A stretch of DNA of 64,000 nt from Saccharopolyspora phatthalungensis. GTDB lineage: Bacteria; Actinomycetota; Actinomycetes; Mycobacteriales; Pseudonocardiaceae. This document shows, piece by piece, positions 7,239 to 52,105 of this stretch (the stretch's first letter is position 1; each line of letters begins with the position of its first letter). Where the stretch lies: assembly GCF_014203395.1 (NCBI RefSeq), contig NZ_JACHIW010000001.1, forward strand, positions 2,232,001-2,296,000, given 5' to 3'. Made by a program: the position numbers and the translations under genes. The notes under the pieces were generated by a model. The model searched no databases, was not told the DNA's origin, and worked only from the letters and a program-made list of their open reading frames with translations.

Positions 7239-7284
7239 GGCGATTTCGATGGAGATCACCGCGCTGGTTTCCATTGAAATCGAC
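7239..7284. repeat. 46-bp palindromic repeat, copy 1
   Basis: One of four 46-bp elements in the window. Each half matches the consensus GGCGATTTCGATGGAAATC followed by the central AACG|CGTT. In this copy the left arm reads GGCGATTTCGATGG and the right arm CCATTGAAATCGAC, so the stem retains one G-U pair and one mismatch. It lies between the convergent purA and antiporter genes, 7 bp after the purA stop, and could act as a bidirectional terminator. Confidence 0.85.
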
Positions 7285-7298
7285 ACCGCCACACCCGG

Positions 7299-8912
7299 TC
7301 AGCGGTTGCGCCAGGAGCCGTCGAGGGCGGCTTCCCGGAGATCCAGTTCGCGCAGGACCCGGCGCAGCACCTGGTCGTCGAGGTTTCCCGCGTCCCGTTC
7401 ATCGGCGATCGCCGAGCGCTGCACTTCGATCAGGTCGCGGCGCAGGTCGGAGAACACCTTGCTCGCGGTGTCCGCGCGCTCCGCGGCCGTGCGCCCGACC
7501 TGCTCCGCCGCCGTCATCCCCTGGTGCTCCACCAGGTCCTTCATCCGGCCGATGATCCGGTCGAAGTGGGCCGGCTCGGTGCGCAGGTCCGCGGGGGTCA
7601 GCCCGTCCAGGTAGCGCAGGGCGGCGTTGGTGGCTGTCACCCGCGCCTCCGCCTCCGCTTGGTCGTCGCGCGCGGCCTCGTCCGGGTCGGTGACACCCAG
7701 CTTCCGGATCAGCCACGGCAGCGTGGTGCCCTGCACCAGGATGGTGCCCACGACGATCACGAACGCCACGAACTGGATCAGCTCGCGCGCGGGGAAAGGC
7801 GCGCCGCTGCCGGTGGTATGCGGGATCGCGCCCGCGGCGGCGAGGGTGACCACGCCGCGCATCCCGGCCCACGACAGCACGGTGGTGCGCCGCCACCAGC
7901 CGCCGCGTTTCCTGCCGCCGGTCAGCAGGTGCGACAGTCCCGGCACGTAGTTGGACCAGAACATCCACACGATCCGGAACCCGATCGTCGCGGCCAGGAT
8001 CAGCAAGGCAGCCACCAGCACCGAGCCGATATCGCTCCCGGAAGCGCCGACGGCCCGGACGACGGTGCTCAGCTGGAGCCCGATGTAGGCGAACACCAGG
8101 CTTTCCAGCAGGAGGTTGATCGACGCCCAGACGGTGTGCTCCTGCAGCCGTCCGGCGGCCCGCGCCCGCGGCTGGTTGTGGCCGACGTAGAGCCCGGCGG
8201 TGACGACCGCGAGCACCCCGGAACCGTGCAGCTGCTCGGCGGTCAGGTACGCGATGAACGGCACGAGCACGCCGAGCAGGGTCGCCACCTGCACGTCGGG
8301 CACATGGGTCCGGGCGATCTGTGCGAGCGCCCCGAACACCAATCCCAGCCCGACGCCGACCACCACGGCCAGCACAAAGACCAGCGCCCCTTGGGCCAGG
8401 GTCGGCGTGGTGCCGACGACCGCGGCGATCGCCATCCGGTAAATGGTGAGCGCGGCAGCGTCGTTGATCAGGCTTTCGCCGCCGAGGACCGTCATCACGC
8501 CGCGCGGCAGCTTCAGCTGACGGCCGATCGCGGCGGCTGTCACCGCGTCCGGCGGCGCGATCACCGCGCCAAGCACGATCGCGGACTTCAGTGGCAGGTC
8601 GGGGATGAGCAGGAAAGCCAGCCAGCCGATCACGAACGACGTGGCGATCACCTGCAGGACCCCGTGGTGCACGATCGGTCTGATCCGGGCCCGGAAGTTG
8701 GTGAAGGAGCTCTCCAGCGCGGCGGAGTAGAGCAGCGGCGGGAGCACCACGGTCAGCAGCAGTTTCGGATCGATTTCCAGATTCGTCGTGCCAGGGATCA
8801 GCGAAACGACCAGGCCGACCAGCACCAGCAGCAGCGGGGCGGCGATCTCTCGGCTCCGCGCGGCCGCGGTGACCAGCAGCGCGCCGATCAGGACGAGCAG
8901 CAGTTGGGCCAC
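7299..8912 (-). CDS. Na+/H+ antiporter, CPA1 family
   Basis: A 537-residue monovalent cation/proton antiporter for pH and sodium homeostasis in the cytoplasmic membrane. About 12 transmembrane helices span residues 1-420. The conserved ion-path segment is GAVIAPPDAVTAAAIGRQL near residue 140, followed by VLGGESLINDAAALTIY, the other hallmark of the CPA1 family. A long hydrophilic, mostly helical C-terminal tail (about 120 residues) probably has a regulatory role. The start at 8912 is an ATG following GGACGGAGGTGACGCCC. It stands alone between the convergent purA and a glycerophosphodiesterase gene. Whether it prefers Na+, K+ or both cannot be read from the sequence. Confidence 0.92.
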   Translation of the reverse strand: MAQLLLVLIGALLVTAAARSREIAAPLLLVLVGLVVSLIPGTTNLEIDPKLLLTVVLPPLLYSAALESSFTNFRARIRPIVHHGVLQVIATSFVIGWLAFLLIPDLPLKSAIVLGAVIAPPDAVTAAAIGRQLKLPRGVMTVLGGESLINDAAALTIYRMAIAAVVGTTPTLAQGALVFVLAVVVGVGLGLVFGALAQIARTHVPDVQVATLLGVLVPFIAYLTAEQLHGSGVLAVVTAGLYVGHNQPRARAAGRLQEHTVWASINLLLESLVFAYIGLQLSTVVRAVGASGSDIGSVLVAALLILAATIGFRIVWMFWSNYVPGLSHLLTGGRKRGGWWRRTTVLSWAGMRGVVTLAAAGAIPHTTGSGAPFPARELIQFVAFVIVVGTILVQGTTLPWLIRKLGVTDPDEAARDDQAEAEARVTATNAALRYLDGLTPADLRTEPAHFDRIIGRMKDLVEHQGMTAAEQVGRTAAERADTASKVFSDLRRDLIEVQRSAIADERDAGNLDDQVLRRVLRELDLREAALDGSWRNR

Positions 8913-9072
8913 CGGGCGTCACCTCCGTCCGTACTGGACAGGTTAGGTGGCGCGGCGGCCCCGAAGACCACGCCCTGGTCGGTGCCACCCGGCACCCGGC
9001 TGCTGCGATGCGAACGGCCTGTTCACCTCGATATGACGAGAGAACAGGCCGTCCGCCCCACCCGAACCGGGA

Positions 9073-10194
9073 TCACCGGCCCGCGGTGGCCGCCGCATGG
9101 TCGTCGCGGGCGATGACGGCGATGTCCGGCTGGTCGCTGAAGATCCCGTCGATGCCCTGGTCGAAAAGTGCCCGGAAGAAGCCGAAGACGTCGCCGAAGG
9201 CGGCCGGGTCGGCCGAGGAGCGGAAGTCGGCGGGCAGGAACGTGTTCTCCGCCCGGACCGTGTACGGCACCACCTGCAGGTCGGCTTTGTGCGCGTCGGC
9301 GACGACGGTGGTCGGCTTGGTGAGGTAGCCGTCGGCGTTCACCGGCAGGATCACCTTGGTGTCCGGACCGATCACGTCGGCGTACCCGGCGATCTCCCGC
9401 AGGCCCTCCGACTTGACCAGGTCGGCGTAGGTGCGCGGGTCCCCGGCCTCGATGAAGTCCTGCGGCGCGCCGCTGTTGCTGATCAGCTGCACGAGCGGCA
9501 CCCGCAGCGACCGGTTGAGCTCCTTGAGGTTGCTCACCTCGAAGGACTGCACGACGACCTTGGCGTTCGGCCGGTTCAGGCCGTTGCGGGTGAGGGCTTG
9601 GACCACGCCGGGTTCCAACGCCAGGCCGAGCTTGCCGAAGTAGCTGGGGTGCTTGGTCTCCGGGGCGACGCCGATGTCGCGGCCGAGTTCCCGCGACAGC
9701 CGCGCCCGCAGGTCCAAGACCTCTTGGAACGTCGGCACCTCGTAGCGGCCGTCGTAGATCGTGTTGTGCGGCCGGACGTTCGGGATGCGCTCCTTGGCGC
9801 GCAGCGTCTTGAGCTCGGCGAGGGTGAAGTCCTCGGTGAACCAGCCGGTGATCGAGGTGCCGTCGATGACCTTGGTGGTCTTGCGGCCGGCGAACTCGGG
9901 GTGCGCGGCGACATCGGTGGTGCCGCCGATCTCGTTCTCGTGCCGCGCGACCAGCACGCCGTCCTTGGTGGGCACCAGGTCGGGCTCGATGTAATCGGCG
10001 CCCATCCGGGCCGCCAGCTCGTAGGAGGCCAGCGTGTGCTCCGGCCGGTACCCGGAGGCGCCGCGGTGCCCGAAGACCGTCACCCGCTCGGCGTCGTCCG
10101 GTCGGTTCGGTGCGGCGATGGCGGGCGCCGTGAGCAGCCCCAACGCCGCGGCTCCGGCGACCGACAGCGCCGTCAGGCGTACCCGGATCGTCAT
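9073..10194 (-). CDS. Secreted glycerophosphodiester phosphodiesterase
   Basis: Hydrolyses deacylated phospholipids (glycerophosphodiesters) to glycerol 3-phosphate and an alcohol. The N terminus is a signal peptide ([21 protein letters not shown], cleavage near residue 28), so the enzyme is exported. GDPD motifs are clear: [18 protein letters not shown] with the catalytic His and Arg, and [20 protein letters not shown] with metal-binding Glu/Asp and the second catalytic His. A large insertion ([17 protein letters not shown]) is typical of GlpQ-like members. At 373 residues it matches that group. The ATG at 10194 follows GGGAGGGCAC. It is divergent from purD. Phosphate-starvation control is plausible, but I see no PHO box here. 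Confidence 0.92.
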
Positions 10195-10401
10195 GTGCCC
10201 TCCCGTGTCTGGCGCAGCTTGTGATCAACGCTGCGGATTCGGGCAAAACACTGACGGCCGCAAACGACCATTCGCGCAAGGCCGGGCAACCCGTCGACGG
10301 CTGCCGGATGAACTACCGGGATCGACCGGATGGCCAGGGCTGGTGCGGTGCATCGGCGCAACGAATGCGGGGGCATTGCCACCGTGGCGTGCCGCACGCT
10401 C

Positions 10402-10407
10402 TACGCT
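10402..10407 (+). promoter_or_regulatory. Candidate -10 element of leaderless purD
   Basis: The hexamer TACGCT matches the actinobacterial TANNNT -10 pattern and lies 7 nt before the purD GTG. There is no purine-rich ribosome binding site in between. This spacing would place the transcription start on the start codon, giving a leaderless mRNA. Confidence 0.5.
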
Positions 10408-10414
10408 GCGGTTC

Positions 10415-11677
10415 GTGCGAATCCTCGTGATCGGTGGCGGTGGCCGGGAACACGCGATCGTGCTGGCGCTGTCCCGCGACCCGTCCGTGACCGCGCTTGC
10501 CTGCGCGCCCGGCAATGCGGGCACCGCCGCGCTCGCCGAGACCTACGGCGTTGACGTCGCGAAACCGGCCGAAGTGGCCGCGCTGGCCACCAAATGGCAG
10601 GCCGACCTCGTCGTGTTCGGCCCCGAGACGCCGCTGGTCGCGGGCGCGGCCGACGCCGTCCGGGCGGCTGGCATCGCCTGCTTCGGCCCGTCGAAGGCTG
10701 CCGCGCGCATCGAAGGCTCCAAGGCGTTCGCCAAGGACGTCATGCTCGCGGCCGGGGTGCCGACCGCGCACAGCGAAGTGGTGGACAACCCCGCGAAGCT
10801 GGATGCCGCGCTGGCGCAGTTCGGCCCGACCTGGGTGGTCAAGGACGACGGCCTGGCCGCCGGCAAGGGCGTGCTGGTGACCGGTGATTTCGATGCCGCG
10901 CGGGCACACGCGCTCAAGCTGCTCGACGGCGGGCACCCGGTGCTGCTGGAGTCGTTCCTGGACGGCCCGGAGGCGTCGCTGTTCTGCCTGGTCGACGGCA
11001 CCACGGTGGTCCCGCTGCTGCCCGCGCAGGACTTCAAGCGGGTCGGCGACGGTGACGCGGGCCCGAACACCGGCGGCATGGGTGCTTACGCGCCGCTGCC
11101 GTGGGCACCGGAGGACCTGGTCGAGACCGTGGTGCGCACCGTGGTGCAGCCGACGGTCGACGAGCTGGCGCGCCGTGGCACGCCGTTCTCCGGGCTGCTT
11201 TACGCGGGTCTCGCGTTGACCTCCTCGGGTCCGCAGGTGATCGAGTTCAACTGCCGCTTCGGCGACCCGGAGACCCAGGCCGTGCTCGCTCTGCTGCACA
11301 CGCCGCTGGCGTCGCTGTTCAACGCCGTCGCGCGCGGCGAGCTCGCCGCGCAGCCGCCGCTGGAGTGGGAGCCCGGTGCGGCGGTGACCGTGGTGGTGGC
11401 CGCCGAGGGCTACCCAGGGCGGCCGCGCGTCGACGACGTGATCCAGGGCGGTGACGCGCAGGGCATCCTGCACTCCGGCACCCGGCGGCGGGAGGACGGC
11501 GCGGTGTTGTCCGCCGGCGGCCGCGTGCTGTCGGTGGTGGCCACCGGCCCGGACCTGGCGGCGGCTCGCGAGGAGGCGTACCGCCGGGTCGCCGGCGTGC
11601 ACCTGCCGGGCTCGCACTACCGCACCGACATCGCGCTCCGCGCGGTGCACGGCGAAATCGCCATTCCGACCGCCTAA
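10415..11677 (+). CDS. purD: Phosphoribosylamine-glycine ligase (GAR synthetase)
   Basis: Joins phosphoribosylamine and glycine using ATP, the second step of purine synthesis. The 420-residue ATP-grasp enzyme starts with the nucleotide-binding [12 protein letters not shown]. It then has [12 protein letters not shown] (ATP-binding loop), [22 protein letters not shown] and [12 protein letters not shown] (metal-binding Glu and Asn), all in family order. The GTG at 10415 is chosen because it gives the standard N terminus directly before the first beta strand. No ribosome binding site is present, but a TANNNT hexamer lies 7 nt upstream, consistent with leaderless initiation. The gene is monocistronic, followed by an unrelated aminotransferase. 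Confidence 0.96.
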
Positions 11678-11787
11678 CGAGTCTTTCGGGCAGCTATCCG
11701 CTACCCGAAAGACCCACGGCTTCGATCGGCGGACTTCGGCCCTGACCCGCATAAACACCGGGGTCGGGGGCCTGGCACGCTGGGCTC

Positions 11788-12966
11788 ATGCTCAGTCAGC
11801 ACCACGCCCTCGCCGTTGCACAGCGGGCGGATGTCGCGCCGTTCCAGGTGATGGAGGTCCTGTCCGCAGCCGCAGCGCGGCAGCGTGCGAAGGGCGATGT
11901 GGTCTCGCTGGCCGCGGGCCAGCCCGCCACGCCCGCACCGAAGGCCGTCCGCGAAGCCGCAGCGCAGGCGTTGCACCACCACGCGCTCGGCTACACCGAG
12001 CAGCTCGGCCTTCCTGAGCTGCGCGAATCGATCGCCGAGCACTACGACCGGTCCTACGGGCTGATGATTGAGCCCGACGATGTCGTGGTGACCACCGGCG
12101 CCTCCGGCGCCTTCCTGCTCGCCTTCCTCAGCGCCTTCGACGCCGGTGACCGCGTCGCGCTGGCTCGCCCCGGCTACCCGGCCTACCGGAACATCCTGGC
12201 GGCGCTGGGATGCGAGGTCGTGGAACTGCCGTGCGACGAGACGACGCGGTTCCAGCCGACGGTGGCGATGCTGGACGCGCTCGACGAGCCGGTGCGGGGG
12301 CTGATCGTGGCGAGCCCCGCGAACCCGACCGGCACGGTGCTCTCCCGCGATGAGCTGGCCGGGCTGGCGCGGTGGTGCGAGACCAACGGTGTGCGGCTGA
12401 TCAGCGACGAGATCTACCACGGCCTCAGCTACGGGGATCCGCTGCACGCGGCCTGGGAGTTCTCCCGCGAGTCGATCGCGGTGAACTCGTTCTCCAAGTT
12501 CTGGTCGATGACCGGCTGGCGGCTGGGCTGGATGCTGGTGCCGCCGCGGCTGCGCCGCGCGGTGGACTCGCTGACCGGGAACTTCACGCTTTGCCCGCCC
12601 GCGCTGTCCCAGTACGGCGCGATCGCGGCGTTCTCCCGGGCGGCATACGCCGAGGTCGGCGCGCACGTCGAGCGCTACCGGACGAACCGGGAGCTGCTGC
12701 TCAGTGGTCTTGGCGAGCTCGGCATCACCCGGGTCGCCCCGGCCGACGGCGCGTTCTACGCCTGGGCCGACATCGGCCATCTCGCCGACGATTCCGCGGC
12801 CTTCTGCCGACGGCTGCTGGACGAAACGGGTGTCGCCGTGGTGCCAGGGGTGGACTTCGATCCGGTGCTGGGCCACCGCTTCGTGCGGATGTCGTTCGCG
12901 GGAAGCACCGAGGACATCGCCGAAGCCCTGGACCGCCTAGCCCGCTGGTTACCCGGCGCGCCGTGA
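11788..12966 (+). CDS. Class I/II PLP-dependent aminotransferase
   Basis: A fold-type I aminotransferase of 392 residues acting on an unidentified amino acid and 2-oxo acid pair. Landmarks are VTTGASGAFLLAF (PLP phosphate contact), ARPGYPAYRNIL, the NPTGT motif with the ring-contacting Asn near residue 177, ISDEIYHGLSY (Asp to the pyridine nitrogen, Tyr), and SFSKFWSMTGWRLGW with the Schiff-base Lys near residue 236. The C-terminal RMSFAGS carries the substrate carboxylate-binding Arg. It resembles the aspartate/alanine aminotransferase-like group. The ATG at 11788 has no strong ribosome binding site. A terminator hairpin follows at 13015. Confidence 0.88.
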   Translation: MLSQHHALAVAQRADVAPFQVMEVLSAAAARQRAKGDVVSLAAGQPATPAPKAVREAAAQALHHHALGYTEQLGLPELRESIAEHYDRSYGLMIEPDDVVVTTGASGAFLLAFLSAFDAGDRVALARPGYPAYRNILAALGCEVVELPCDETTRFQPTVAMLDALDEPVRGLIVASPANPTGTVLSRDELAGLARWCETNGVRLISDEIYHGLSYGDPLHAAWEFSRESIAVNSFSKFWSMTGWRLGWMLVPPRLRRAVDSLTGNFTLCPPALSQYGAIAAFSRAAYAEVGAHVERYRTNRELLLSGLGELGITRVAPADGAFYAWADIGHLADDSAAFCRRLLDETGVAVVPGVDFDPVLGHRFVRMSFAGSTEDIAEALDRLARWLPGAP

Positions 12967-13014
12967 CCGTGCTCCCGACCGGTCGGCCGGCACCGGGCCA
13001 TCCAGCGGCTTACG

Positions 13015-13038
13015 ACTCAGGGGTTCCCTGAGTTTTCC
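13015..13038 (+). terminator. Intrinsic terminator after the aminotransferase gene
   Basis: An 8-bp perfect stem (ACTCAGGG / CCCTGAGT) with a 3-nt GTT loop is followed directly by TTTTCCC, giving a short U run. It lies about 50 bp after the aminotransferase stop and before the small membrane protein gene. Confidence 0.75.
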
Positions 13039-13130
13039 CCGGTATGGGACTTCGGCACGCCGCCGACCGGGCGTGATCTGGCACGCTGAAGACGGGACGG
13101 GATTGGCGCGGCCGAGCTGAGGTGCTTGCG

Positions 13131-13890: not shown

Positions 13891-13908
13891 GCGCCCCTCC
13901 TGGGGAAC

Positions 13909-24856: not shown

Positions 24857-25600
24857 GTGAGCACGCCGCTCGTGGTGTCGTTGTCCGGACTCGGGCACCG
24901 GGTGCTGGACCAGTGCGCGGAGTTCGCCGCGGAACTGGACCACCGCCAGGTCCCGCTGTCCCTGCTGATCTCGCCACGCCCGGACCAACTGGAAGCGCGG
25001 AGTCCGCAGTCCCCGGTGCTGCACTGGGTGGCCGAGCGCTTGGCGCGGGGGGACGGCGTCAGCCTGTACGGCTTCGCCCGCGTGTCGCCGGGCCTGCGCG
25101 CCCGCCTCGCGCCGGCGGCCAGGCTCCCGGCGCACGAAGCCGGGCTGCGCCTGGTGGCCGCGTCGGCGGTGCTGGAGCAGGCCGGGCTGCGGACGGACAC
25201 CTTCATCCCGCCGCGCTGGCTCGCCTCGCCCGGCACGGTAACCGCGTTGCAGCGGCGCGGATTCTCGGTTTGCGCGGATGCGATGGCGGTCCGGGAACTG
25301 GCGACCGGCCGGGTGCACCGGGCTCGGATCCGGGTGCTCGGTCCGGGTTCGCGGGTCGAGCCGTGGTGGTGCCGGGCGCTCGTGCTGGGGGTCGGGCGTG
25401 CGGCCCGCCGCGGTCGACTGGTCCGACTCGCCCTGGACGCCGCTGAGCTGGGCAAGCCGTTCTCGCGGCAGGCCGTCCTGGACGCCATCGACCTGGCCCT
25501 GCACCACGGCGCGCGGCCGCTCACCTATGCCGCGTTCGCCCACGGGGTCGGCGATTTCGATGGAAATCGACGCGTTGATGTCCATCGAAATCGCCCCTAA
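24857..25600 (+). CDS. DUF2334/polysaccharide-deacetylase-like protein with altered metal motif
   Basis: A 247-residue protein resembling the DUF2334 branch of the polysaccharide deacetylase superfamily (NodB-like barrel). The first strand TPLVVSLSGLGHRVLDQC and the RQVPLSLLISPR segment fit the family, as does TFIPPRWLASPGTV. The position that normally reads GF/YDH, with metal-binding Asp and His, is LYGFARVSPG here, so the metal site looks lost. The last 16 codons (VGDFDGNRRVDVHRNRP) come from a copy of the 46-bp palindromic repeat, which has replaced the original C terminus and stop. The GTG at 24857 follows GGGACC. It may be a degenerate or non-catalytic protein. Confidence 0.65.
   Translation: MSTPLVVSLSGLGHRVLDQCAEFAAELDHRQVPLSLLISPRPDQLEARSPQSPVLHWVAERLARGDGVSLYGFARVSPGLRARLAPAARLPAHEAGLRLVAASAVLEQAGLRTDTFIPPRWLASPGTVTALQRRGFSVCADAMAVRELATGRVHRARIRVLGPGSRVEPWWCRALVLGVGRAARRGRLVRLALDAAELGKPFSRQAVLDAIDLALHHGARPLTYAAFAHGVGDFDGNRRVDVHRNRP
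25550..25595. repeat. 46-bp palindromic repeat, copy 2 (inside a coding 3' end)
   Basis: The best-preserved copy: outer arms GGCGATTTCGATGG and CCATCGAAATCGCC pair perfectly over 14 bp. It lies inside the last codons of the DUF2334-like gene, 5 bp before its TAA, and 14 bp before the stop of the convergent MBL gene. The 8-bp sequence ACGGGGTC occurs on both sides (25542-25549 and 25603-25610), which could be a target-site duplication, though the right copy is offset by 7 bp. Confidence 0.85.
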
Positions 25601-39503: not shown

Positions 39504-40301
39504 GTGCTACCCGGATACACCGAGGAGCTGACGCAGTCGACCGCGGTCGACCAGTCGGCAAGGAACACCGCCGCCACCGAGCCGCTCGTGGAGCGGTCCG
39601 TGCAGGCGCAGGTCGCGTCGGTGGCTCGCGCCGTTCGGGCCCGCTCGGGCAGCGGCGGAGTGTTGCAGGTCGTGCATGGGGCCAAGCGGGTCGGCTGGGC
39701 GGCCTACGAGCTGCAACGTAACGCTAGGCAGCTGGTCCAAGGGGTCGCCAAGCCCCCGTACGTCACGACCGGGCCGCTGGATTCGCTGGAATCCCGCAAG
39801 CTCGCGGAGGGCGTCCAGTACCAGGTGCTGTACGACCGATCCGCGCTGGCGCGCCCCCCGCAGCTGGACATCACGACCAAGCTGGTCGCGATGGGCGAGC
39901 AGGCGCGGGTGATCCACATGGCGCCGACCAAGCTGATCATGGTGGACAACGAGATCGCGCTGCTGCCGCTGACCGTGAGCGACACCTCGGTGGAAAGCGC
40001 CGTGGTGGTGCGCAGTTCGGCGATGCTGGCGGCGATTGCCCGGATCTTCGAAGACCTGTGGCGCTTCGCCGCACCGTTCACCCCGAACCGGGCCCTGTCC
40101 AGCCAAGAACTGCAGCCCACCGAGGAGGAACGGTGGATCCTGTCGCTGCTGGCCTCCGGCGCGACGGACGACGCGATTGGTCGGCTGATGGGCTTCAGCG
40201 CTCGCACCGCGCATCGCCGGGTCCGCGAGCTGATCGCGCGGTTGGGCGTGGAGACGCGTTTCCAGGCGGGCATGCAGGCGGTGAAGCTCGGCTGGCTCTG
40301 A
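39504..40301 (+). CDS. LuxR-type (GerE HTH) transcriptional regulator
   Basis: A 265-residue regulator with a C-terminal LuxR/GerE helix-turn-helix (TEEERWILSLLASGATDDAI, then GRLMGFSARTAHRRVRELIA). The middle part (KLAEGVQYQVLYDRSALA to IMVDNEIALLPL) resembles the TrmB-like effector domain found in many actinobacterial regulators of secondary metabolism and development. The N-terminal 70 residues are helical. The GTG at 39504 follows GAGGAGGGGTGTGCC, which decides against the longer frame starting at 39417. No linked target operon is obvious. Directly downstream lies the IS110 element. Confidence 0.82.
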   Translation: MLPGYTEELTQSTAVDQSARNTAATEPLVERSVQAQVASVARAVRARSGSGGVLQVVHGAKRVGWAAYELQRNARQLVQGVAKPPYVTTGPLDSLESRKLAEGVQYQVLYDRSALARPPQLDITTKLVAMGEQARVIHMAPTKLIMVDNEIALLPLTVSDTSVESAVVVRSSAMLAAIARIFEDLWRFAAPFTPNRALSSQELQPTEEERWILSLLASGATDDAIGRLMGFSARTAHRRVRELIARLGVETRFQAGMQAVKLGWL

Positions 40302-42040
40302 GCAGCCTATGAGGGCGAAGTCAATTGGTGATGTTTCCGGTTTTGGGCGTGCGGCAGTGTCCCCGCGGGTGTGCGGGGTTGATCATGGTGGGTGGTGATG
40401 TGGTGGGTGGCGTGACTGGCCGGGGTGGCGGGTGCCTGCGCCCACTCTCCGTGCTCGACCTAGCGAACAACCGGGTTTGTCCCAACAGCCCTCATCCGAG
40501 CTTGGGTGGAGGGTGGGCGGGGCGCCCCTGCTCAGTTCCGGGTTCTGCCCAAGGAGGAGTCGGGTTCGCCCCGCCCATGGCCAGTGTCGCGCTATGCGGC
40601 CTGCGGCGCCACCTCCTTCGTAGTGCCGGCGGCAACCGCCGGATCCCAGGCCACCCGGCGGGTGACGACCACGAACAGCTGTCGCAGCAGTGCCGCTGCG
40701 AGGGCCGTGCGGGCTTGTCCCGGGCGCAGCGGGTTGGTTTCACGGGTGGTCAGGTGCGTATAGCGGGCGGTGTAGACCGGGTTGTGGGTCAGTGCGCCCC
40801 AGATGGCCCGCCAAGCGGCGGTGCGCAGTCCGGGGCGGCCGCGGCGGGAGACCGTGGTGATGCCGTGAAAGTTCCCGGATTCGTTGGCACGTGGGCACAA
40901 CCCCGCATGCTTGACCCAGGTTCGGGCACAGTCGAAGCGCGCTGGGTCGCCGGTCTCGGCGAGGATGGCGGCGGCCCCGACGACCGACAACCCCGTGATG
41001 GTGGTGACCAACGTGGACAGTTCCAGGGTGTCGAGGACCTCGATCATGCGGGCCTCAACGTCGGCGAGCTGCCCCAGGGCATGGTGCCAGTCGTCGAGTG
41101 CGTAGGCCGCTCGTTCGCAGGCCGCGGCTTGCTCGGTAGCAACCCCGCCAGGTGTGCGAGCGGCGTCGAAGATCGCGCGCAGAATGCGCAGATTGCGGCG
41201 GCTGCCACCCCAGCGGGGAAGTTCGTCACGCACTGCCGCGGCAAAGGCATCAAAGCCCATCGCCATGATCCGGGCCGGGTCGGTGGACACCGCCATGGCC
41301 ACCCGCCAGGTCAGCGTGTCCAAAGGCTTGCTCGCGGTGGACAGCACCGCAGGCCAGGCACACTCCAGCAGATCACGCAAACGCTGCCGGGCCGACCCCG
41401 CGGCAACAAGCTGATCGGCACGGCGAGCCCCCAGATGCCGCAGGCGACACCAGTGCCCCTCCAGCACATAGGGCACGTAACAGCGCAGTTCCGCGACGCG
41501 TTTGGCGATGATCGTGGCGTCTTTGAAGTCCGACCGGTCGCGGGTGAAGTCCTCTTCCTCCCGGCCACGGTGCACCAGCATCGGGTTCACGCACACCAGC
41601 TCAACTCCGCGAGCGCGGGCCCGGTCCAGCAGCGGCTTCCAGCGATGCCCGGTCGGCTCGCACCCCAGCACCACACCGGCGAACCCCGCCTTGGCGGCGA
41701 CCGGCCCGGCCCAGTCCAGGATGTCATCGATCACCCACGCATCCCCGCTGAACATGCGTCGGCCCAGCACCCGCGAATCGTGATCGGCGACCACCGCCGC
41801 CTGTTTGGCCGAGGCCAGATCGACTGCGACCACCGCGAACTCGCGGCGCACGATCGATCGCAACCGGGTCAGCCGCTCGTTCCGCCGACGATCACCGCGC
41901 GTAAGCGCCCTGACATGAGGCACAGCATCCTCCTCGATAGCAACTGATCCAGAACCCGAACACTCACAAGAAGGAGACCTGCGCAATGAACTCCGGATCA
42001 ACCACTACCCGTACTTACTAGGAAGGGATTTCCTCTGGGG
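40302..42040 (-). mobile_element. IS110-family insertion sequence (approximate limits)
   Basis: The transposase gene (40592-41923) is flanked by non-coding DNA: up to about 290 bp after its 3' end, with GC-rich repetitive character (GGTGGGTGGTGATGTGGTGG and similar), and about 115 bp before its 5' end. IS110 elements lack long terminal inverted repeats and carry a non-coding bridge RNA in one flank, so exact ends cannot be fixed by eye. The limits given run from the luxR stop to the adjacent 46-bp palindrome. The element appears intact, with no frameshift in the transposase. Confidence 0.55.
40592..41923 (-). CDS. IS110-family transposase
   Basis: A 443-residue DEDD-type recombinase. The N-terminal RuvC-like domain shows VVAVDLASAKQAAVV (first Asp), GCEPTGHRWKPLL (Glu) and RDRSDFKDATIIAKR (Asp pair). 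The C-terminal Transposase_20 domain shows ITGLSVVGAAAILAETGDPA, then HAGLCPRANESGNF with the conserved Ser, and SRRGRPGLRTAAWRAIWGAL. The length is slightly above the roughly 400 residues usual for the family. A GTG at 41923 with GAGGAGG upstream is the likely start. The frame is intact, so the element may be active. Family members insert by bridge-RNA-guided recombination. Confidence 0.93.
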   Translation of the reverse strand: MPHVRALTRGDRRRNERLTRLRSIVRREFAVVAVDLASAKQAAVVADHDSRVLGRRMFSGDAWVIDDILDWAGPVAAKAGFAGVVLGCEPTGHRWKPLLDRARARGVELVCVNPMLVHRGREEEDFTRDRSDFKDATIIAKRVAELRCYVPYVLEGHWCRLRHLGARRADQLVAAGSARQRLRDLLECAWPAVLSTASKPLDTLTWRVAMAVSTDPARIMAMGFDAFAAAVRDELPRWGGSRRNLRILRAIFDAARTPGGVATEQAAACERAAYALDDWHHALGQLADVEARMIEVLDTLELSTLVTTITGLSVVGAAAILAETGDPARFDCARTWVKHAGLCPRANESGNFHGITTVSRRGRPGLRTAAWRAIWGALTHNPVYTARYTHLTTRETNPLRPGQARTALAAALLRQLFVVVTRRVAWDPAVAAGTTKEVAPQAA

Positions 42041-42086
42041 GGCGGTTTCAACGGAAACCAGCGCGTTGATTTCTATTGAAATCGCC
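42041..42086. repeat. 46-bp palindromic repeat, copy 3
   Basis: Left arm GGCGGTTTCAACGG, right arm CTATTGAAATCGCC. The centre GCGCGTTGAT matches the other copies. The two arms have diverged at several sites but the length is the same 46 bp. It lies beside the IS110 element, 28 bp before the -10 candidate of the SCP-like gene. It is the only copy not between convergent genes. Confidence 0.75.
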
Positions 42087-45465: not shown

Positions 45466-45603
45466 ACACCTACCGTGCCCCGGTCCGGGCGGCCGTCACG
45501 CCCCGGACCAGGCGCGAGAAGTCTGTGATCGCGGCCGGGAATGCCGAAGGGCTCCCGGCCGTTGAACCGATAGCTGGCGTGCGCGTGTGCCCCCGGGCTC
45601 CAA

Positions 45604-45825: not shown

Positions 45826-45960
45826 GGTGCTCCTCCTATGTGGGACTTTGCGAACTCGTCAACCCCACCCGCTCATGCACATCGGGTCAGACGAACGACT
45901 CCGACGCACCTCGCCATCGAGCGAACAGCGTTCATCCGCCGTCCTCGGTGGAGATGTGCT

Positions 45961-46149: not shown

Positions 46150-46390
46150 GGCTCGACCCCCTCGCACAGGGTTGCGGGGCGGACAGGGGAATGTCGGCCC
46201 CGCATGATCTCGACAACTTTTCCTGTAACTACCGTACCGTGTCGAGGCGGTTGAACGCGACGTGGTGCCTTGACTGAGTGGCCGTGTCTTGGGTGACGTC
46301 GCACTCTTGCCGATTCGATCACTCGGCTGACAGCCGTTTCGCGGCTCCGGCAATGAGCCAACCGCAGCTGTCCGTGGGCCGCATGGCACC

Positions 46391-47278
46391 ATGCTCGCTG
46401 TGCCAGAGCCGTTCGTCGCCTACCTGAGGGTGTACGAGCCCTTGTCGTCCTACGACTCACCGCTGCGCGAGGAACTGGCGGCGGTCGTCGAGCGCGGGCC
46501 GGTGGATCCGTTCGAGGCGGGACTGCGCGAGCAAGACGTTTGGTTGCGCAGCCAGCTCGCCGCGCCGCCCCGACTGCTGCCCGGCGAAACCGCCGACGGC
46601 GCGGTCCAGGGCGTCGGCGACGTGCTGGTGCTCGACCCGGCGGACGTGCCGAGCGCTCCGGCGGCCAAGGTGGGGCCGGGTCCGCTGGTGTGCCCACTGG
46701 ACCTGCGCGGGCGGTCCGCCGCGGCGCTGGTCGGGTTCCTGGGCGATGCGGAGATCGCACTGCGGTCTGCGGTGCTGCAAGTGCCGGTCGAGAAGGCCAA
46801 GGTGCGGGCGAGCGCCGTGGTCAGCGAGCTCGCCGGCGGTGCGGTGCACGTGCTGTCGTCCACCTGGACCGTCCCGCTGCCCTGGTTCGTGCTGGTCGAT
46901 CCGGTGGAGCGGTGCGTGTTCACCGAGCCGGGGCGGCGACGGGTGTGCTGGCGGGTGGCGATGGCCGACGCGCGGCGGCGGGTCGCCCGGGCGCACGCGA
47001 TCGGCCGGCAGTCCATCGGCGAGGAGGGGCCGACCCGGATCCTGCACGAGACCGGCCGCTGGCTGGAGCGCTTCCACCCGCACTCCGCAGTGGAGCTGGA
47101 CTACGGCGGCTTGGTGCAGCTGATGACGGCGAGCGACCTGGACGCGGACACCTCGGCGGAGGACGTGCACGCGATCGTTGACGCCATGGAAGCCGACGAC
47201 GCCGAAGAGGTCGGCACCCGGTACGAAAGCCTGCGCGACTTCTGGGGAGAGTTCGCTGCGCGCGAACGCCACAACTGA
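46391..47278 (+). CDS. Conserved hypothetical protein, 295 aa
   Basis: A soluble 295-residue protein I do not recognise. Its N terminus (AVPEPFVAYLRVYEPLSSYD) and the central region with AKVRASAVVSELAGGAVHVL plus STWTVPLPWFVLVDPVER look like a compact alpha/beta domain. A helical part follows (WRVAMADARRRVARAHAIGR, then GRWLERFHPHSAVELDYGGL) and an acidic C terminus (MEADDAEEVGTRYESLRDFW). There is no signal peptide or membrane helix. It is divergent from the DUF3073 gene, a common position for a conserved actinobacterial gene. The start ATG lacks a good ribosome binding site; a GTG three codons later is possible. Confidence 0.72.
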   Translation: MLAVPEPFVAYLRVYEPLSSYDSPLREELAAVVERGPVDPFEAGLREQDVWLRSQLAAPPRLLPGETADGAVQGVGDVLVLDPADVPSAPAAKVGPGPLVCPLDLRGRSAAALVGFLGDAEIALRSAVLQVPVEKAKVRASAVVSELAGGAVHVLSSTWTVPLPWFVLVDPVERCVFTEPGRRRVCWRVAMADARRRVARAHAIGRQSIGEEGPTRILHETGRWLERFHPHSAVELDYGGLVQLMTASDLDADTSAEDVHAIVDAMEADDAEEVGTRYESLRDFWGEFAARERHN

Positions 47279-47329
47279 CGTGCGGAGCGCGGTCGTTCCG
47301 CGTGGCGGCGCGGGTGGCGGGACCGCAGT

Positions 47330-47382
47330 GAACTAAGCGGTGCAGATCACCGGCGTTTGAACTTAGCGGCGCAGACCACGGA
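47330..47382. repeat. Imperfect 29-bp tandem repeat
   Basis: Two units, starting GAACTAAGCGG at 47330 and GAACTTAGCGG at 47359, are spaced exactly 29 bp apart and continue as TGCAGATCACCGG and CGCAGACCACGG. They lie between the convergent hypothetical and methyltransferase genes. They may be end remnants of a mobile element or a protein binding site. Confidence 0.5.
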
Positions 47383-47397
47383 CTTTGGCTCGATGGG

Positions 47398-48207
47398 TCA
47401 CGGTCGGCACCGGATCTCGCCGTTGAGGACGGCGAACCAACCGTCTTCGGCGTCCATCCAGGCGTGCCAGGCGGTGGCGAGTGCTTCCAGCTCGTCGCGG
47501 GTGGTCAGGCCGTGCTTCAGGGCCTGCTCGGCGAAGGACGACCGGCGGATGCGGTCCGCCCACAGGTTGCCCCACCAGGCACGTTCCTCGGTCGTCGCGA
47601 AGCACCACGCCGAGGCCGTGCAGGCGACGTCGCGGAATCCCGCCGCCAACGCCCAGGTCTTCAGGTACCGGCCGCTGTCGGGGAAGGCCCGGTTGCGGTG
47701 CGCCACCTGCCGGTACAGCTCCAACCAGCGGTCCAGGCCGGGGTTGCCCGGCGACCAGCGCATGCCGCCATAGTCGGCGTCCCGCGCCGCCACGATGCCG
47801 CCCGGCTTGCATACGCGCCGCATCTCGCGCAGCGCGGCGACCGGGTCGGTCAGGTGTTGTAGCACCTGGTGGGCGTGCACTACGTCGAAGGAGCCATTGG
47901 CGTGGGGCAGGCGGTAGACATCGGCGTTGGCGAAGGTGACGTTGTCCAGGCCGCGTTCGGCGGCTCCGGTCCGGGCGATCTCCAGCGGATCGTCGGCATT
48001 GTCCACGCCCAGCACCTGGCCGGGTCCGACCAGGGCGGCGAAGTCCAACGTGATGGTTCCGGGCCCGCAGCCGATGTCGAGCACGCTGGTGCCCGGCCGC
48101 AGGTGCGGGATCAGGTATGCCGCGGAGTTCTCGGCGGTCCGCCAGCGGTGCGATCGCAGCACGCTCTCGTGGTGTCCGTGGGTGTAGGTGTCCGGCTGCG
48201 CCTGCAT
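47398..48207 (-). CDS. Class I SAM-dependent methyltransferase
   Basis: A 269-residue UbiE/MenG-like methyltransferase. Motif I is SVLDIGCGPGTITLDFA near residue 45 (SAM-binding glycine loop). Motif II is GVDNADDPLEIAR with the acidic ribose-binding Asp, followed by VTFANADVYRLPHANGSFD and VVHAHQVLQHLTDP, then GGIVAARDADYGGM. The C-terminal 100 residues form a substrate-binding cap rich in Trp (WALAAGFRDVACTASAWCF, then WWGNLWADRI). The substrate is unknown. The ATG at 48207 is preceded by GACGGAAGAC. The neighbours give no hint about the pathway. Confidence 0.88.
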   Translation of the reverse strand: MQAQPDTYTHGHHESVLRSHRWRTAENSAAYLIPHLRPGTSVLDIGCGPGTITLDFAALVGPGQVLGVDNADDPLEIARTGAAERGLDNVTFANADVYRLPHANGSFDVVHAHQVLQHLTDPVAALREMRRVCKPGGIVAARDADYGGMRWSPGNPGLDRWLELYRQVAHRNRAFPDSGRYLKTWALAAGFRDVACTASAWCFATTEERAWWGNLWADRIRRSSFAEQALKHGLTTRDELEALATAWHAWMDAEDGWFAVLNGEIRCRP

Positions 48208-48779
48208 GTCTTCCGTCTCATGATATGGGAGGTCAGTATCAATATGTGAGCGTACTCCGGAGAAGCTCCAGTCGGGAAGCGAATAAGAGGCCGTGAGCGA
48301 TTACACCGGTTCCGGGCAGCGGGAACACCGAGCCGACCAGTTTGCCGCCGGGGGCCGGCTCCTCGGTGAGCGCATTGGGCCCGTCGCCGGACCTCCCGAG
48401 CGAGCACGGGGTTCCCACGGCGACGGCCGGCCCGGCAAATGTGTCGTTAATCACGTTTTTTCCGTGGGCGTTTCGGGCCCGACAGTCCTCTGTGGACCAG
48501 ACCTGTCGCACGCGGGTGGTGAGCATCGCCGCGTGCTTGCCGGGCATGCTCTTACTCGGCGCTGTGCGAGGCCGCAGCGAGCGCGATGCCCGGAAGCGGC
48601 AGTTCCCCAGCCGCCCCGGGCATTACGGCGGCCTGAGCGGGTTTGAGCGAGGAACGCGGGTCCATTGGCGCATCGGCCTCGCCGCGGGCATGGCGCACCG
48701 CACCCGCCCCACGACAACCGAGCCGCGGGAAGTCCACTTCGGACGACTCCGACTCCGACGAACAGGACTGCGTTGCTCG
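48208..48779. other. 572-bp gap with no assignable gene
   Basis: Between the methyltransferase start and the rsiG stop there is no frame with a good ribosome binding site and recognisable product. The longest leftward frame (48239-48547, 102 codons, starting PGKHAAMLTTRVRQ) has an ATG without a ribosome binding site. A TTTTTT run at 48455-48460 is unusual for this GC-rich DNA. The region may hold a non-coding RNA or a lost gene. Confidence 0.45.
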
Positions 48780-49337
48780 CTACCGGTCTCGTTCCTCCGC
48801 GAGCAAATCGTCCACCGATGCGGCGCCCTCGCGGTACCGGCGGGCGATCTCCGCGTTCAGCCGGTCCACCACGCTTTGGACTTCCCGGCGGCGATGGGAC
48901 ACCGAATCCTCTTCCGCGGTGTAGGCGTCGAGGGCCTGGTCGAGCTTGGCCTCCGACAGTGACATGACATCCGAGAGATCGACATCGGAGACCAGCGCCT
49001 CGACGTGCCTGCGGTGCGCCTCGGCCCGCGACGGCTCGGTCGTCTGGTACCGGCCGGAACCGGTCGCCGGCCCGACGGCGTTGTCCGCCAGGATGTTCAC
49101 CAACTGTTCGACGACCGACGCGGACCCGCCTTCCCGGCGTCGCCGTTGCTCCGCACGCACGATGTCGATCCGCGCGTGCAGCACCCTACGCAGGTAGGAG
49201 AGGTCCGTTTCCTCCTGCGCCGCCTCGTCCCGCAACGCGCGCACTTCGCCAAGCGCGCGGTGCTCGATACCACTGGTGTAGTCCGGGGACAGGACCCTAT
49301 CGATGCGGCGCCGTCCACCCGGGCGGACTTCGATCAC
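48780..49337 (-). CDS. rsiG: RsiG-like c-di-GMP-binding anti-sigma factor
   Basis: A 185-residue helical protein matching RsiG, which in Streptomyces binds the sporulation sigma factor WhiG in a c-di-GMP-dependent way. The c-di-GMP motif E-x3-S-x2-R-x3-Q-x3-D occurs twice, once on each helix of the expected antiparallel coiled coil. The second copy is perfect (E143, S147, R150, Q154, D158). The first is E43, S47, R50, H54, D58, with His in place of Gln. The flanking LSYLRRVLHARIDIVRAE is also typical. The GTG at 49337 follows GGAGG with 8-nt spacing. It is third in a leftward set with nur and ygfZ. WhiG itself is outside the window. Confidence 0.88.
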   Translation of the reverse strand: MIEVRPGGRRRIDRVLSPDYTSGIEHRALGEVRALRDEAAQEETDLSYLRRVLHARIDIVRAEQRRRREGGSASVVEQLVNILADNAVGPATGSGRYQTTEPSRAEAHRRHVEALVSDVDLSDVMSLSEAKLDQALDAYTAEEDSVSHRRREVQSVVDRLNAEIARRYREGAASVDDLLAEERDR

Positions 49338-49503
49338 GTGGCCATCCTCCGGCAATTCGGTAGAGCTCGCCAACAATTCGTGTGATGTTGTTTTAGCAAC
49401 GGGGCGAAACCGCCCGTTCGCGCAGCGTGTTGGGGCACGCGCGGCGACGAGGACGAGCGGCCTGCACGATTCCAGGCATACCCGCCTCGTCAAACACCCG
49501 CCG

Positions 49504-50646
49504 CTACCGGCCGCGCAACCCCTGGGCCGCGATCCGCCCCGGGGGTTCGCCGGTGTCCGGCGGCACCGAGTCGGGATCCACCGCCGCGGCCACCGCGCGG
49601 TCCTGCTCCGGGTCGCCGGCGATCAGCTCGCTGTCCACCGGTGCCGACCGCTTGAGCAGCGCCAGCGCCACCGGGCCGAGCTCGTGGTGCTGCACCACGC
49701 TGCCCACCCGACCGACCTTGCGCTCGCCGAACCACACCGGATCGCCGGTCTCCGGCAGGATCTCCGCCGAGCCGTCGAGGTGCAGCAGCACCATCCGCCG
49801 CGGCGGCTTGCCCACGTTGTGCACCTTGGCGACGGTTTCCTGACCCCGGTAGCAGCCCTTGGCGACATGCGCGGCCACGTGCACCCAGCCGAGCTCGTGC
49901 GGGATCGCGCGCTCGTCGGTGTCCAGCCCGACCCGTGGCCGCAGCGCCGCCACCCGCAGGGCCTCGAAGGCGAGCGTGCCCGACGGCCGGATTCCCGCGT
50001 CGGTCAGCTTCGTCCACCACTCGACCAGCGACTCCCGCGGCACCACGAGATCGACGGTGGGCAGCGCGCGGAACGGCACGCTCCGGCTGAAACCGCCGCC
50101 GGGCAGGGCCCGCACCTCGTAGGGTTTCGAGGGCACCGGCGCGAACTGGGCGAGGATGCCGCCCGCGTCCGTGCCGATGGTGGTCAGCAGCGCGTACTCG
50201 GCGGTGGCGTCCCGGGGTTCCACTTTGGACCAGAACCGCATGGCGTTGAGGTATTCCAGCAGCGACTGCTTGCCGTCCACGCCGATCGTCGGTAGCGCGC
50301 TGGTGGCCTGGGCGCCGGCATCCGTGTCCAGGTAGACCACGCCCTCGTGGTGCGCGACCAGCAGGTGGCAGTCGACGTGGCCGTGGCTGTCCAGCACCAG
50401 TGCCTCGGTGCCCTGCCCGTCCGGCAGTTCCGTCAGGTGCTGGGAGAGCACCAGGTGCAGCCAGCTCAGCCGCTCCTCGCCGGGCACCGCGATGACCTCC
50501 CGGTGCGAGCGGTCCACCAGCACCGCCGAGCGGGTCGCCGAGCGCTGCTCGGCGAAGGGGTCGCCGAAGTGCCAGGGCACGCCGACGTCCACCGCATCTC
50601 CCGGTGCGGGCACCGCACCCGGCAGATCCAACAGGGGTGAACTCAT
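49504..50646 (-). CDS. ygfZ: YgfZ/GcvT-like folate-binding protein
   Basis: A 380-residue tetrahydrofolate-binding protein of the GcvT fold that supports repair or assembly of certain Fe-S enzymes such as MiaB. The signature KGCYRGQETVAKVHNVGK carries the conserved Cys in the KGCYxGQE motif. Other features are VDRSHREVIAVPGEERLSWL at the N terminus and LRPRVGLDTDERAIPHELG (folate pocket). The ATG at 50646 overlaps the stop of the Fur-family gene by one base (TGATG), so the two are translationally coupled. The next codirectional gene, rsiG, lies 166 bp downstream. Confidence 0.9.
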   Translation of the reverse strand: MSSPLLDLPGAVPAPGDAVDVGVPWHFGDPFAEQRSATRSAVLVDRSHREVIAVPGEERLSWLHLVLSQHLTELPDGQGTEALVLDSHGHVDCHLLVAHHEGVVYLDTDAGAQATSALPTIGVDGKQSLLEYLNAMRFWSKVEPRDATAEYALLTTIGTDAGGILAQFAPVPSKPYEVRALPGGGFSRSVPFRALPTVDLVVPRESLVEWWTKLTDAGIRPSGTLAFEALRVAALRPRVGLDTDERAIPHELGWVHVAAHVAKGCYRGQETVAKVHNVGKPPRRMVLLHLDGSAEILPETGDPVWFGERKVGRVGSVVQHHELGPVALALLKRSAPVDSELIAGDPEQDRAVAAAVDPDSVPPDTGEPPGRIAAQGLRGR

Positions 50647-51089
50647 CAGCGCTCCTCGGCGGCGTCGACATCGGTGTTGCGGCAGTTCCGGCACAGGCCG
50701 GACAGGGCGAGGTGGGTGGCGTTCAGGACGAACCCGAATCGCGTGAGCAGCTCCCGCGACAGGTCGTCCAGCAGTTCGGTCGGGACCTCGTCGATCTTCC
50801 CGCATCGGTGGCACGCCAGGTGGACGTGCTCGTGTTCCTCGACGGAGTAGGTCGGCGCGCCGTGCCCCAGATGCGTGTGCCGCACCAGTCCCAGCTCTTC
50901 GAGCAAATCGAGGGCGCGATAGACGGTCGTGATGTTGACTGTCGAGGCGGTGCCCTGTACCCGGCGGCAGACTTGCTCCGGCGTCGCATGCCCCAGTTCG
51001 CGCACCGCATCCAGCACCAGCTGGCGCTGCGGTGTCATCCGCATGCCGCGTTGGTGCAAAGTGCTGCGCAGCGATCCCTGGTCGCTCAA
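50646..51089 (-). CDS. nur: Fur-family metalloregulator, Nur-like
   Basis: A 147-residue Fur-superfamily repressor. The N-terminal winged helix contains RMTPQRQLVLDAVRELGHAT, then NITTVYRALDLLEELGLV. The His-rich metal region is HTHLGHGAPTYSVEEHEHVHL, and structural zinc Cys pairs are CHRCG and CRNC. The HTHLGHGAPTY stretch and general sequence are closer to the nickel regulator Nur of Streptomyces than to FurA or Zur, but metal specificity is inferred. The ATG at 51089 is in the 121-bp divergent region shared with the pabC-like gene. The one-base overlap with ygfZ places both in one operon. Confidence 0.85.
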   Translation of the reverse strand: MSDQGSLRSTLHQRGMRMTPQRQLVLDAVRELGHATPEQVCRRVQGTASTVNITTVYRALDLLEELGLVRHTHLGHGAPTYSVEEHEHVHLACHRCGKIDEVPTELLDDLSRELLTRFGFVLNATHLALSGLCRNCRNTDVDAAEER

Positions 51090-51210
51090 TGCCCGCTCCT
51101 GTGCTCGGCGCGCTTGACGGTCGGCCCTTCGATCGTAACTCCGTAACGGAACTTGCCGGTCACGCGCGCGGTGCGGCTGCGGTTGCGGCTCCGAGGTCTA
51201 GGCTTCCGGC

Positions 51211-52056
51211 ATGCGCGTATTGGCACTTTTGGACGGGACGATCGCTGATCCGCAGGCGCCGCTGTTCCGTGCCGACGACCTCGGGGTGATGCGTGGTGAC
51301 GGCATCTTCGAGACGATCTTGATCGCCGACCGCAAGCCGCGGGAACTCGGACCGCATCTCGACCGCTTGGAGCACTCCGCCGCCCTGCTGCAGCTGCGGC
51401 TGCCCGAGCGCGCAGCGTGGGAGCGGGCCGTGCGGGCGGTCATCGACAACTGGCCGTGGGACACCGACCCGCAGATGGCCGTGAAGCTCGTGTGCACCCG
51501 CGGTGTCGAAGGCGACGACAACCCCAACGGCTTCGCGATGGGCATGCAGATCGAAGCCGACACATTGCGCAAGCGCAGCGAGGGAGTCGCGGCCGTGACG
51601 CTGGAGCGCGGTTACGCCCCGGACCTGATGGAGCGCGCGCCCTGGCTCCTCCTGTCCGCGAAGACCCTGTCGTACGCGGTGAACATGGCCGCGATGCGGG
51701 AGGCAGCGGCGCGCGGCGCCGACGAGGTGATCTTCACCGCCACCGACGGTTCGGTGCTGGAAGGCCCGACCTCGACGGTCGTGCTCGCCCAGGGGCACAC
51801 GCTGCTGACCACCCCGCCCAGCTTGGGAATCCTCAAGGGCACCACCCAGGGGGCGCTGTTCCGGGCCGCGGAGAAGGCCGGTTGGCAGACCAGGGTGACG
51901 AAGTTCCCGGCCTCGGCGCTGTTCGAAAGCGACGGCGTGTGGCTGGCCTCCAGCGTCCGGCTGATGACGCAGGTGCGCTCCATCGATGGCATCGAGATCA
52001 AGGCCGACGCCGACCTGCATGCCGAGATCGACCGCCTCTACGAGTCGAACTACTGA
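51211..52056 (+). CDS. Class IV aminotransferase (aminodeoxychorismate lyase-like)
   Basis: A 281-residue fold-type IV PLP enzyme, either 4-amino-4-deoxychorismate lyase (PabC) or a branched-chain/D-amino acid aminotransferase. Landmarks are FRADDLGVMRGDGIFETI, LGPHLDRLEHSAALLQL, the Schiff-base Lys in LLLSAKTLSYAVNMAAMREA, GADEVIFTATDGSVLEGPTS (cofactor Glu), and KGTTQGALF binding the phosphate. The mycobacterial orthologue in the same position is annotated as PabC-like, giving a folate link with neighbouring ygfZ. TAGGCT at 51199-51204 is 6 nt before the ATG and no ribosome binding site is present, so it is probably leaderless. Confidence 0.88.
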   Translation: MRVLALLDGTIADPQAPLFRADDLGVMRGDGIFETILIADRKPRELGPHLDRLEHSAALLQLRLPERAAWERAVRAVIDNWPWDTDPQMAVKLVCTRGVEGDDNPNGFAMGMQIEADTLRKRSEGVAAVTLERGYAPDLMERAPWLLLSAKTLSYAVNMAAMREAAARGADEVIFTATDGSVLEGPTSTVVLAQGHTLLTTPPSLGILKGTTQGALFRAAEKAGWQTRVTKFPASALFESDGVWLASSVRLMTQVRSIDGIEIKADADLHAEIDRLYESNY

Positions 52057-52059
52057 CGC

Positions 52060-52105
52060 GGCGAATTCAAAGGAATCCAACGCGCCGATTTCCATCGAAA
52101 TCGCC
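52060..52105. repeat. 46-bp palindromic repeat, copy 4
   Basis: Left arm GGCGAATTCAAAGG, right arm CCATCGAAATCGCC. The right half is perfect to the consensus; the left half has several changes. It starts 3 bp after the stop of the pabC-like gene and ends 17 bp before the stop of the convergent DinB gene. Confidence 0.8.

Follow-up and report, generated by a model that had tools for sequence, protein, structure and literature searches.

The 64,000-nt stretch of Saccharopolyspora phatthalungensis DNA analyzed here (hereafter the window; positions 2,232,001 to 2,296,000 of contig NZ_JACHIW010000001.1) carries four copies of a 46-bp palindrome, named P46 in what follows, which represents a dispersed, non-coding, length-conserved family resembling repetitive extragenic palindromic (REP) sequences. 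Most P46 copies directly follow or overlap a stop codon, either that of a single gene or those of a convergent pair, and within the samples searched the family is abundant only in Saccharopolyspora. Judging from sequence, we consider it probable, with a good deal of doubt left, that P46 is a genus-specific REP-like palindrome serving as a bidirectional 3'-end hairpin or terminator, whose symmetry would be kept by selection and probably also by arm-templated repair.

A palindrome family at gene 3' ends

Within the window, a half-site pattern allowing up to three mismatches (<=3) finds 18 matches, of which 14 belong to the four elements; 100 shuffled versions averaged 1.25 matches, and none exceeded 4. 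In the whole genome (G000; 8.54 Mb, 6 contigs), a both-strand BLAST search gave at least 53 matches (best 40 of 117 candidates scored), and a both-strand search with a covariance model built from 22 BLAST-found copies gave at least 150; together they define at least 82 places, some of them partial. Model searches score at most 150 matches per genome (at most 25 in the order-wide survey described below), so that these counts are lower bounds. Exactly 46 bp are found at 61 of the 82 places, the remainder measuring 28-53 bp owing to indels and partial copies, and the copies at L095, L098 and L117 are interrupted by an insertion sequence (IS). The consensus, aligned from the 61 places of exactly 46 bp, is GGCGATTTCAATGGAAATCGGCG followed by its own exact reverse complement, i.e., a perfect palindrome with zero spacer. 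No two of these 61 copies are identical, and only 3 of the 82 are individually perfect palindromes; at C1:694463, both arms carry matched one-base insertions. The four window elements had been described in a first-pass annotation as palindromes of 46 bp each, which the sequence bears out, and the spacer-less symmetry that it read from their majority sequence extends to the 61 copies, the consensus of which differs from the four-copy majority at 3 positions per arm. That annotation also called for a search of the genome and its relatives, from which came the places counted above and the matches in other species given below.

The core words of P46 were found in no paper by a full-text literature search, most subscription journals and preprints lying outside its scope, and no description of the repeat was met in the literature searched (titles and abstract starts, mainly open literature) or in the available passages of PMC3610266. 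Rfam, at gathering scores, has zero matches across the window. With P46, a genus known for antibiotic producers gains a large, well-defined family of palindromic repeats.

The position of P46 relative to genes is strongly biased toward 3' ends and convergent gaps and is not random, the point at which the first-pass annotation had proposed to look. With genes called by a simple open reading frame (ORF) finder (Pfam being consulted around the four window elements only), the 82 copies in the S. phatthalungensis genome divide into 31 convergent, 36 tandem, 5 divergent, 3 intragenic and 7 unassigned, and the 72 gap copies depart from the gap lengths of the window with a chi2 of 42 (p about 7e-10). 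As many as 52 of the 67 convergent or tandem copies fall within -45..+15 bp of the nearest predicted 3' end. Moreover, 12 predicted gene ends lie exactly 39 nt into the element, at the TGA of the consensus, so that the element's own stop is used. In 400 kb of the G014 genome, P46 occupies 12/62 convergent, 12/255 tandem and 0/62 divergent gaps, and in 400 kb of G002 it occupies 12/57, 11/261 and 0/57, respectively, two counts that are not independent because these genomes are close relatives. Tandem against divergent gaps alone do not differ significantly in G014 (p 0.13).

In the window, three of the four elements had been placed between convergent genes, 3-17 bp from stop codons or within a gene end, and this placement is correct. 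The elements and the IS beside one of them are as follows:

7239..7284, no strand: P46 element 1, 7 bp past purA (+, stop ends at 7231); an Na+/H+ antiporter gene (-) has its stop end (7299) 14 bp away
25550..25595, no strand: P46 element 2, in frame within the 3' end of ORF 24857-25600 (+), encoding approximately its last 15 residues
40302..42022, minus strand: IS110-family insertion with a transposase gene at 40595-42001 (-), between the stop of a + gene ending at 40301 and element 3; left boundary approximate
42041..42086, no strand: P46 element 3, between the IS110 transposase gene (-) and an SCP_3 gene (+)
52060..52105, no strand: P46 element 4, 3 bp past an aminodeoxychorismate-lyase-like gene (+, ends at 52056); a mycothiol-S-transferase/DinB-family gene (-) has its stop end (52123) 17 bp away

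The ORF that bears element 2 matches DUF2334, and an MBL-fold gene (-) has its stop end (25609) 13 bp from the element. In G012 and G014, the reading frame at this slot ends differently and without P46.

Distribution across species and turnover of the slots

Among other Saccharopolyspora species, 18 of 21 match P46, with between 2 and at least 150 two-strand matches, and G010, G011 and G020 gave zero matches to the model. In a survey of 249 genomes from the order, 14, including that of S. phatthalungensis, contain a match at E <= 0.001. Ten loci were fetched from this survey: L200 is 46 bp long and palindromic, with different inner words, L208 looks like a chance match, and most of the others are longer palindromes (55-75 bp) of a partly similar plan. 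A script scan of 400 kb each detected 39 copies in G014 and 41 in G002, about 100/Mb, and none in reversed or shuffled G014; a looser scan detected 4 copies in 200 kb of G012 and 7 in 264 kb of the S. phatthalungensis genome, and the stricter scan recovers 3 of the 4 window elements.

Many of the copies in G002 and G014 are paired, lying about 85-98 bp apart and enclosing a second stem, GGCGTGTCGG...CCGACACGCC. Scanned for with a strict pattern, this stem always has P46 nearby (8 of 8 and 13 of 13 occurrences), and none was found in the G012 and G000 stretches. One such pair in G002 corresponds to a single copy in G014. At joined positions 343884/343908 and 351839/351863 of G014, P46 is extended to three 24-bp units (70 bp), which suggests slippage of the 24-bp period.

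Individual slots turn over between species. In the 150 bp behind the gene preceding element 4, compared in 21 other genomes, G002, G012, G013, G014 and G018 have a full P46, G005 and G006 a half element, and G004 and G008 an element split by another repeat; the other 12 have none, several of them with a different neighbor gene. By named records, full copies are present at this slot in indica, kobensis, oryzae and elongata, the hirsuta copy lies beyond that other repeat, and the records of soli, subtropica and rosea show no copy there. A repeat of ~290 bp (GGTGGCGGAACCTCAG... in one orientation) is located behind the gene before element 4 in L158 and L160, as well as at the G014 slot equivalent to G002 316620, and in two species it splits a P46-like palindrome.

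Likewise, the initial 200 kb of the stretch fetched from G014 contain 12 site clusters, and in comparison with these (flank identity mostly 94-98%, lowest 79%), G012 had equal copies at 3, one of two copies at 1 and none at 8. Seven of these eight P46-less slots were folded (122666 was left out), and four of them carry another hairpin: slots 1203, 28339 and 115909 have hairpins with a short T stretch (z -3.9, -3.1 and -7.9, respectively), and slot 49375 has a 22-bp palindrome (z -5.2). Palindromes of this last type (GGCGATTTCGCGCGAAATCGCC, GTCAATTTCGTACGAAATTGAC) share with P46 the ATTTC-N4-GAAAT plan and occur outside it in G002, G012, G014 and G000, but they consist of one unit, whereas P46 consists of two; they may be an older form of P46. 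The GGCGATTTCGCGCGAAATCGCC palindrome is also part of L202, from another genus, and matches to the 22-bp model (as matches only, their sequences unread) were obtained in G086, G232 and G237. In 200 kb of G012 (S. indica; L279-L288, e.g., joined position 40647), there are 15 solo palindromes like GTCAATTTCGTACGAAATTGAC, against 1 in the reversed control, and two of them occupy slots that hold P46 in G014. Such natural orthologous pairs (P46 vs. another hairpin, full vs. collapsed copies, perfect vs. imperfect arms) are well suited to tests of gene ends and of palindrome symmetry.

Stem, symmetry and putative function

In the transcript of either strand, P46 can form a single stem, up to 21 bp long and closed by a minimal loop, and its two arms covary. 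Among the 22 BLAST-found copies, 8 arm pairs show double changes vs. 3.9 after shuffling (1/500 shuffles as high), and 13 cells are double-changed vs. 7.8 (14/500 as high). The 61 copies from the same genome have 36 double-changed cells vs. 21.8 (0/500 shuffles), and in an alignment of the best-scoring copy from each of 17 genomes (L056, 47 bp, and L061, 64 bp, excluded), 14 of the 21 pairs are double-changed, with 33 cells vs. a shuffled mean of 7.1 and 0-6 in slid controls. A comparison of orthologs leans less on the pairing-rewarding model than these last two sets: 29 scan-found G014 elements that align ungapped with G002 give 609 pairs, in which 59 changes are single-sided, 14 are complementary double changes and 4 are double changes of other kinds, and when the arms were permuted among sites, complementary changes averaged 3.9 and reached at most 13 in 5000 permutations. 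Stem selection, template switching or inter-copy conversion can each produce the 14 complementary changes.

In agreement with a stem shortly behind the stop codon, element 1 folds with -24.7 kcal/mol on the + strand (z -5.6) and -14.4 on the - strand (z -2.1), element 2 with z -5.7 (+) and -6.1 (-), element 3 with z -4.1 (+) and -4.5 (-), and element 4, the weakest, with z -1.6 (+) and -2.9 (-). Twin 6-bp hairpins, also proposed in the first-pass annotation, can indeed be drawn within P46, but covariation and folding favor one long stem, and the twin form was rejected as the conserved structure for its little gain in covariation.

From these properties, a mechanism can be proposed in which P46, transcribed from either strand, would fold into a long stem at the gene end, where the hairpin would end or trim transcripts and shield mRNA ends in both directions; a two-way terminator role is plausible as a prediction. 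In relatives, the same slot would be filled instead by ordinary terminators or other palindromes. The symmetry of P46 would be held by selection on the stem, probably aided by template switching from arm to arm, and new gene ends would have been reached by some route that involves no REP-associated tyrosine transposase (RAYT) in the element's own genome.

Several observations weigh against this proposal. P46 is followed by no T-run (T makes up 12% of the 12 nt downstream of 36 tandem copies), and the folds of element 4 on the + strand and of element 1 on the - strand are weak. The covariation in the 61-copy and 17-genome sets is inflated, as the copies in them were chosen largely with a pairing-rewarding model. 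Three of the seven folded G012 slots have no substitute hairpin (z -0.3, -1.6 and -0.1), and the hairpin-bearing slots were cut by eye around the hairpin seen, which favors a good fold. A strand test based on G-U over A-C pairs gave a mixed outcome: the plus-strand ratio is 34:9 behind + genes and 22:23 behind - genes (Fisher p 0.004), and we do not lean on it because there is no reversal behind - genes and because convergent G014 copies also show a plus-strand excess (33:17). Finally, the conservation of the GATTTC/GAAATC words across species exceeds the needs of a terminator stem, and the divergence between orthologous elements, 8.0%, is no lower than that of their flanks, which are 85-97.5% identical.

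That elements change no more slowly than flanks is expected if the symmetry of the arms is mainly mutational, arising from template switching or inter-copy conversion, in which case the apparently compensatory changes would say little on function. This account is a serious competitor, though the less likely of the two. Paired double changes between orthologs and the matched insertions at C1:694463 speak for it, and template switching acts on E. coli quasipalindromes and homogenizes the arms of yeast inverted repeats (PMC7202029 and PMC8604942, available portions). However, the 59 single-sided changes among the 609 ortholog pairs, against 14 complementary and 4 other double changes, mean that arm repair is far from complete, and the position bias would require a separate cause.

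It is unlikely that P46 is chiefly a selfish, non-autonomous mobile palindrome (like REPs or miniature inverted-repeat transposable elements [MITEs]) that is tolerated at 3' ends and has no role in termination. Its copy number, which ranges among species from none to about 100/Mb, its presence or absence at orthologous G014/G012 slots, the replacement of C-terminal codons by element 2 together with the 12 gene ends that use the P46 TGA, and the composite P46-stem-P46 units, one of which corresponds to a lone P46 in a close relative, would all suit such a nature. Yet copies crowd within about 15 bp of stops instead of lying anywhere between genes, and the arms of orthologs covary. PF01797 (RAYT) has zero matches in G000 and in the element-rich G002, G004 and G014, and it is present in 9 of the 22 genus genomes, including G011, which has no P46 match; RAYT-driven spread in the S. 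phatthalungensis genome is not supported. Inspection of P46 flanks by eye revealed no consistent direct repeat or target duplication, and P46-less slots in G012 compared with G014 show no exact insertion boundary of the element. Between G002 and G014, some sites are collapsed and two carry a different hairpin or repeat instead, with no clean insertion/empty pair seen (four G002 sites were unjudgeable in that direction). MITE-like mobility rests on differences in presence and absence because no consistent target duplication or clean boundary was seen. Of the label "REP- or MITE-like" given by the first-pass annotation, the REP-like part is supported for a dispersed, length-conserved repeat strongly biased to 3' ends and convergent gaps; the transposase that the annotation suggested looking for is not supported.

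Even less probable is that P46 is a protein-binding site, its GATTTC/GAAATC words at 10-, 14- and 10-bp steps suiting a dimer of dimers, e.g., of a nucleoid-associated protein. These words do contain most of the invariant columns over 17 genomes, and the 24-bp period is repeated to three units at two sites in G014 and G002; however, the arms covary copy by copy, including at bases between the words, which binding would not need, and the divergent (promoter) gaps of G014 and G002 are empty.

The bidirectional 3'-end hairpin that we favor can be set against known systems. REPs have a GTAG-type head and a bulged stem. Like REPs and the bacterial interspersed mosaic elements (BIMEs) of enterobacteria and pseudomonads, P46 is a dispersed extragenic palindrome near gene 3' ends; unlike them, it is 46 bp long, symmetric, essentially loop-less and made of nested 16-bp sub-palindromes, its consensus begins with GGCGATTTC and is unbulged, and no RAYT was found in its own genome, G002, G004 or G014. 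For want of a RAYT partner, of the head and of the bulge, we do not class P46 as a REP. Similarly, bidirectional intrinsic terminators also present a stem on both strands between convergent stops, and some slots orthologous to P46 carry a terminator-type hairpin and a short T-run instead, but P46 itself, conserved in sequence as a many-copy family, lacks the T-run and is for that reason not classed as a canonical intrinsic terminator. REP/BIMEs further resemble P46 in forming composite units, where two palindromes enclose a second stem. They are also targets of specific ISs (PMC1525189, in the part available). The accessible part of PMC8355165 concerns hairpin clusters and termination.

Paired uptake sequences of Haemophilus and Actinobacillus, which act as terminators, are likewise a repeated word in inverted pairs at gene ends, according to the portion of PMC5217627 available. 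In contrast, every half-site of P46 with up to two mismatches (<=2) in the window is located within an element, and the single word is uncommon elsewhere there; P46 was rejected as an uptake sequence for this rarity, within the window, of half-sites outside elements. The same portion of PMC5217627 describes a CGAAA(N)19TTTCG motif pair in Mycobacterium, also an unexplained palindromic motif in related actinobacteria, which differs from P46 in its words, its spacing and its placement among a variety of genes.

Insertion sequences associated with P46

One IS targets P46. In L117 (1893-3006), an IS with a DDE_Tnp_4 transposase, which we take to belong to the IS5/ISL2 group, is inserted inside P46 with a 3-bp AAT repeat on each side. 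A genome search with this IS gave 19 matches, representing eight places among the matches listed (best 40 of 260 candidates). At all 7 places with readable ends, the IS abuts P46 or half of it, the eighth (L321) being an end-less fragment; P46 sequence is located on both sides of the IS in L309-L312 and L314 (one P46 half is left in L314) and on one side in L313 and L315, and the 3-bp flanks are identical in L309, L310, L312 and L314. The insertion point is the middle of a P46 half, and the IS ends, GAGCGTTTTCCATCCTG-like, are unrelated to P46, so that for this IS, the sole linked one examined, P46 serves as a target. Since the 82 places, at 46 bp each, amount to roughly 0.04% of the 8.54-Mb genome and yet 7/7 readable copies of the IS abut P46, the IS chooses this target. 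Several ISs are reported to target REPs (PMC1525189, available part). Its location inside P46 at all seven readable places makes this IS a candidate for sequence-specific, gene-sparing insertion.

A broader and more doubtful idea is that gene 3' ends in Saccharopolyspora are interchangeable slots for unrelated palindrome families, in which P46 would perfect itself by template switching between its arms and the DDE-type IS would land mid-half, sparing genes. If this were true, a self-perfecting P46 at a gene end would stay a working two-way terminator without site-by-site selection, and P46 would have a new route of spreading that needs neither a RAYT nor a matching transposon.

One copy of the P46-targeting IS contains, in its end, a group II intron (RF02003; L095:3115-3251), the only Rfam match in four loci.

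The right end of the IS110-family insertion beside element 3, ...ACTTACTAGG, is one of 8 near-identical right ends in the genome. In G002, G012 and G014, the two + genes that flank the IS110 and P46 stretch adjoin, with a terminator-like hairpin followed by TCTTT between them (fold z -12.5 in G012). These comparisons of sequence indicate that element 3 would mark a slot behind a gene end that predates the arrival of IS110. IS110 was rejected as a P46-specific IS, because among the 8 near-identical right ends (right ends only being compared), only that of the window has P46 in the next 90 bp. A hairpin about CCGTGAGTG...CACTCACGGTCTTTGACC recurs at two unrelated gene ends, namely, the SCP_3 slot of G002, G012 and G014 and the 115909 slot of G012.

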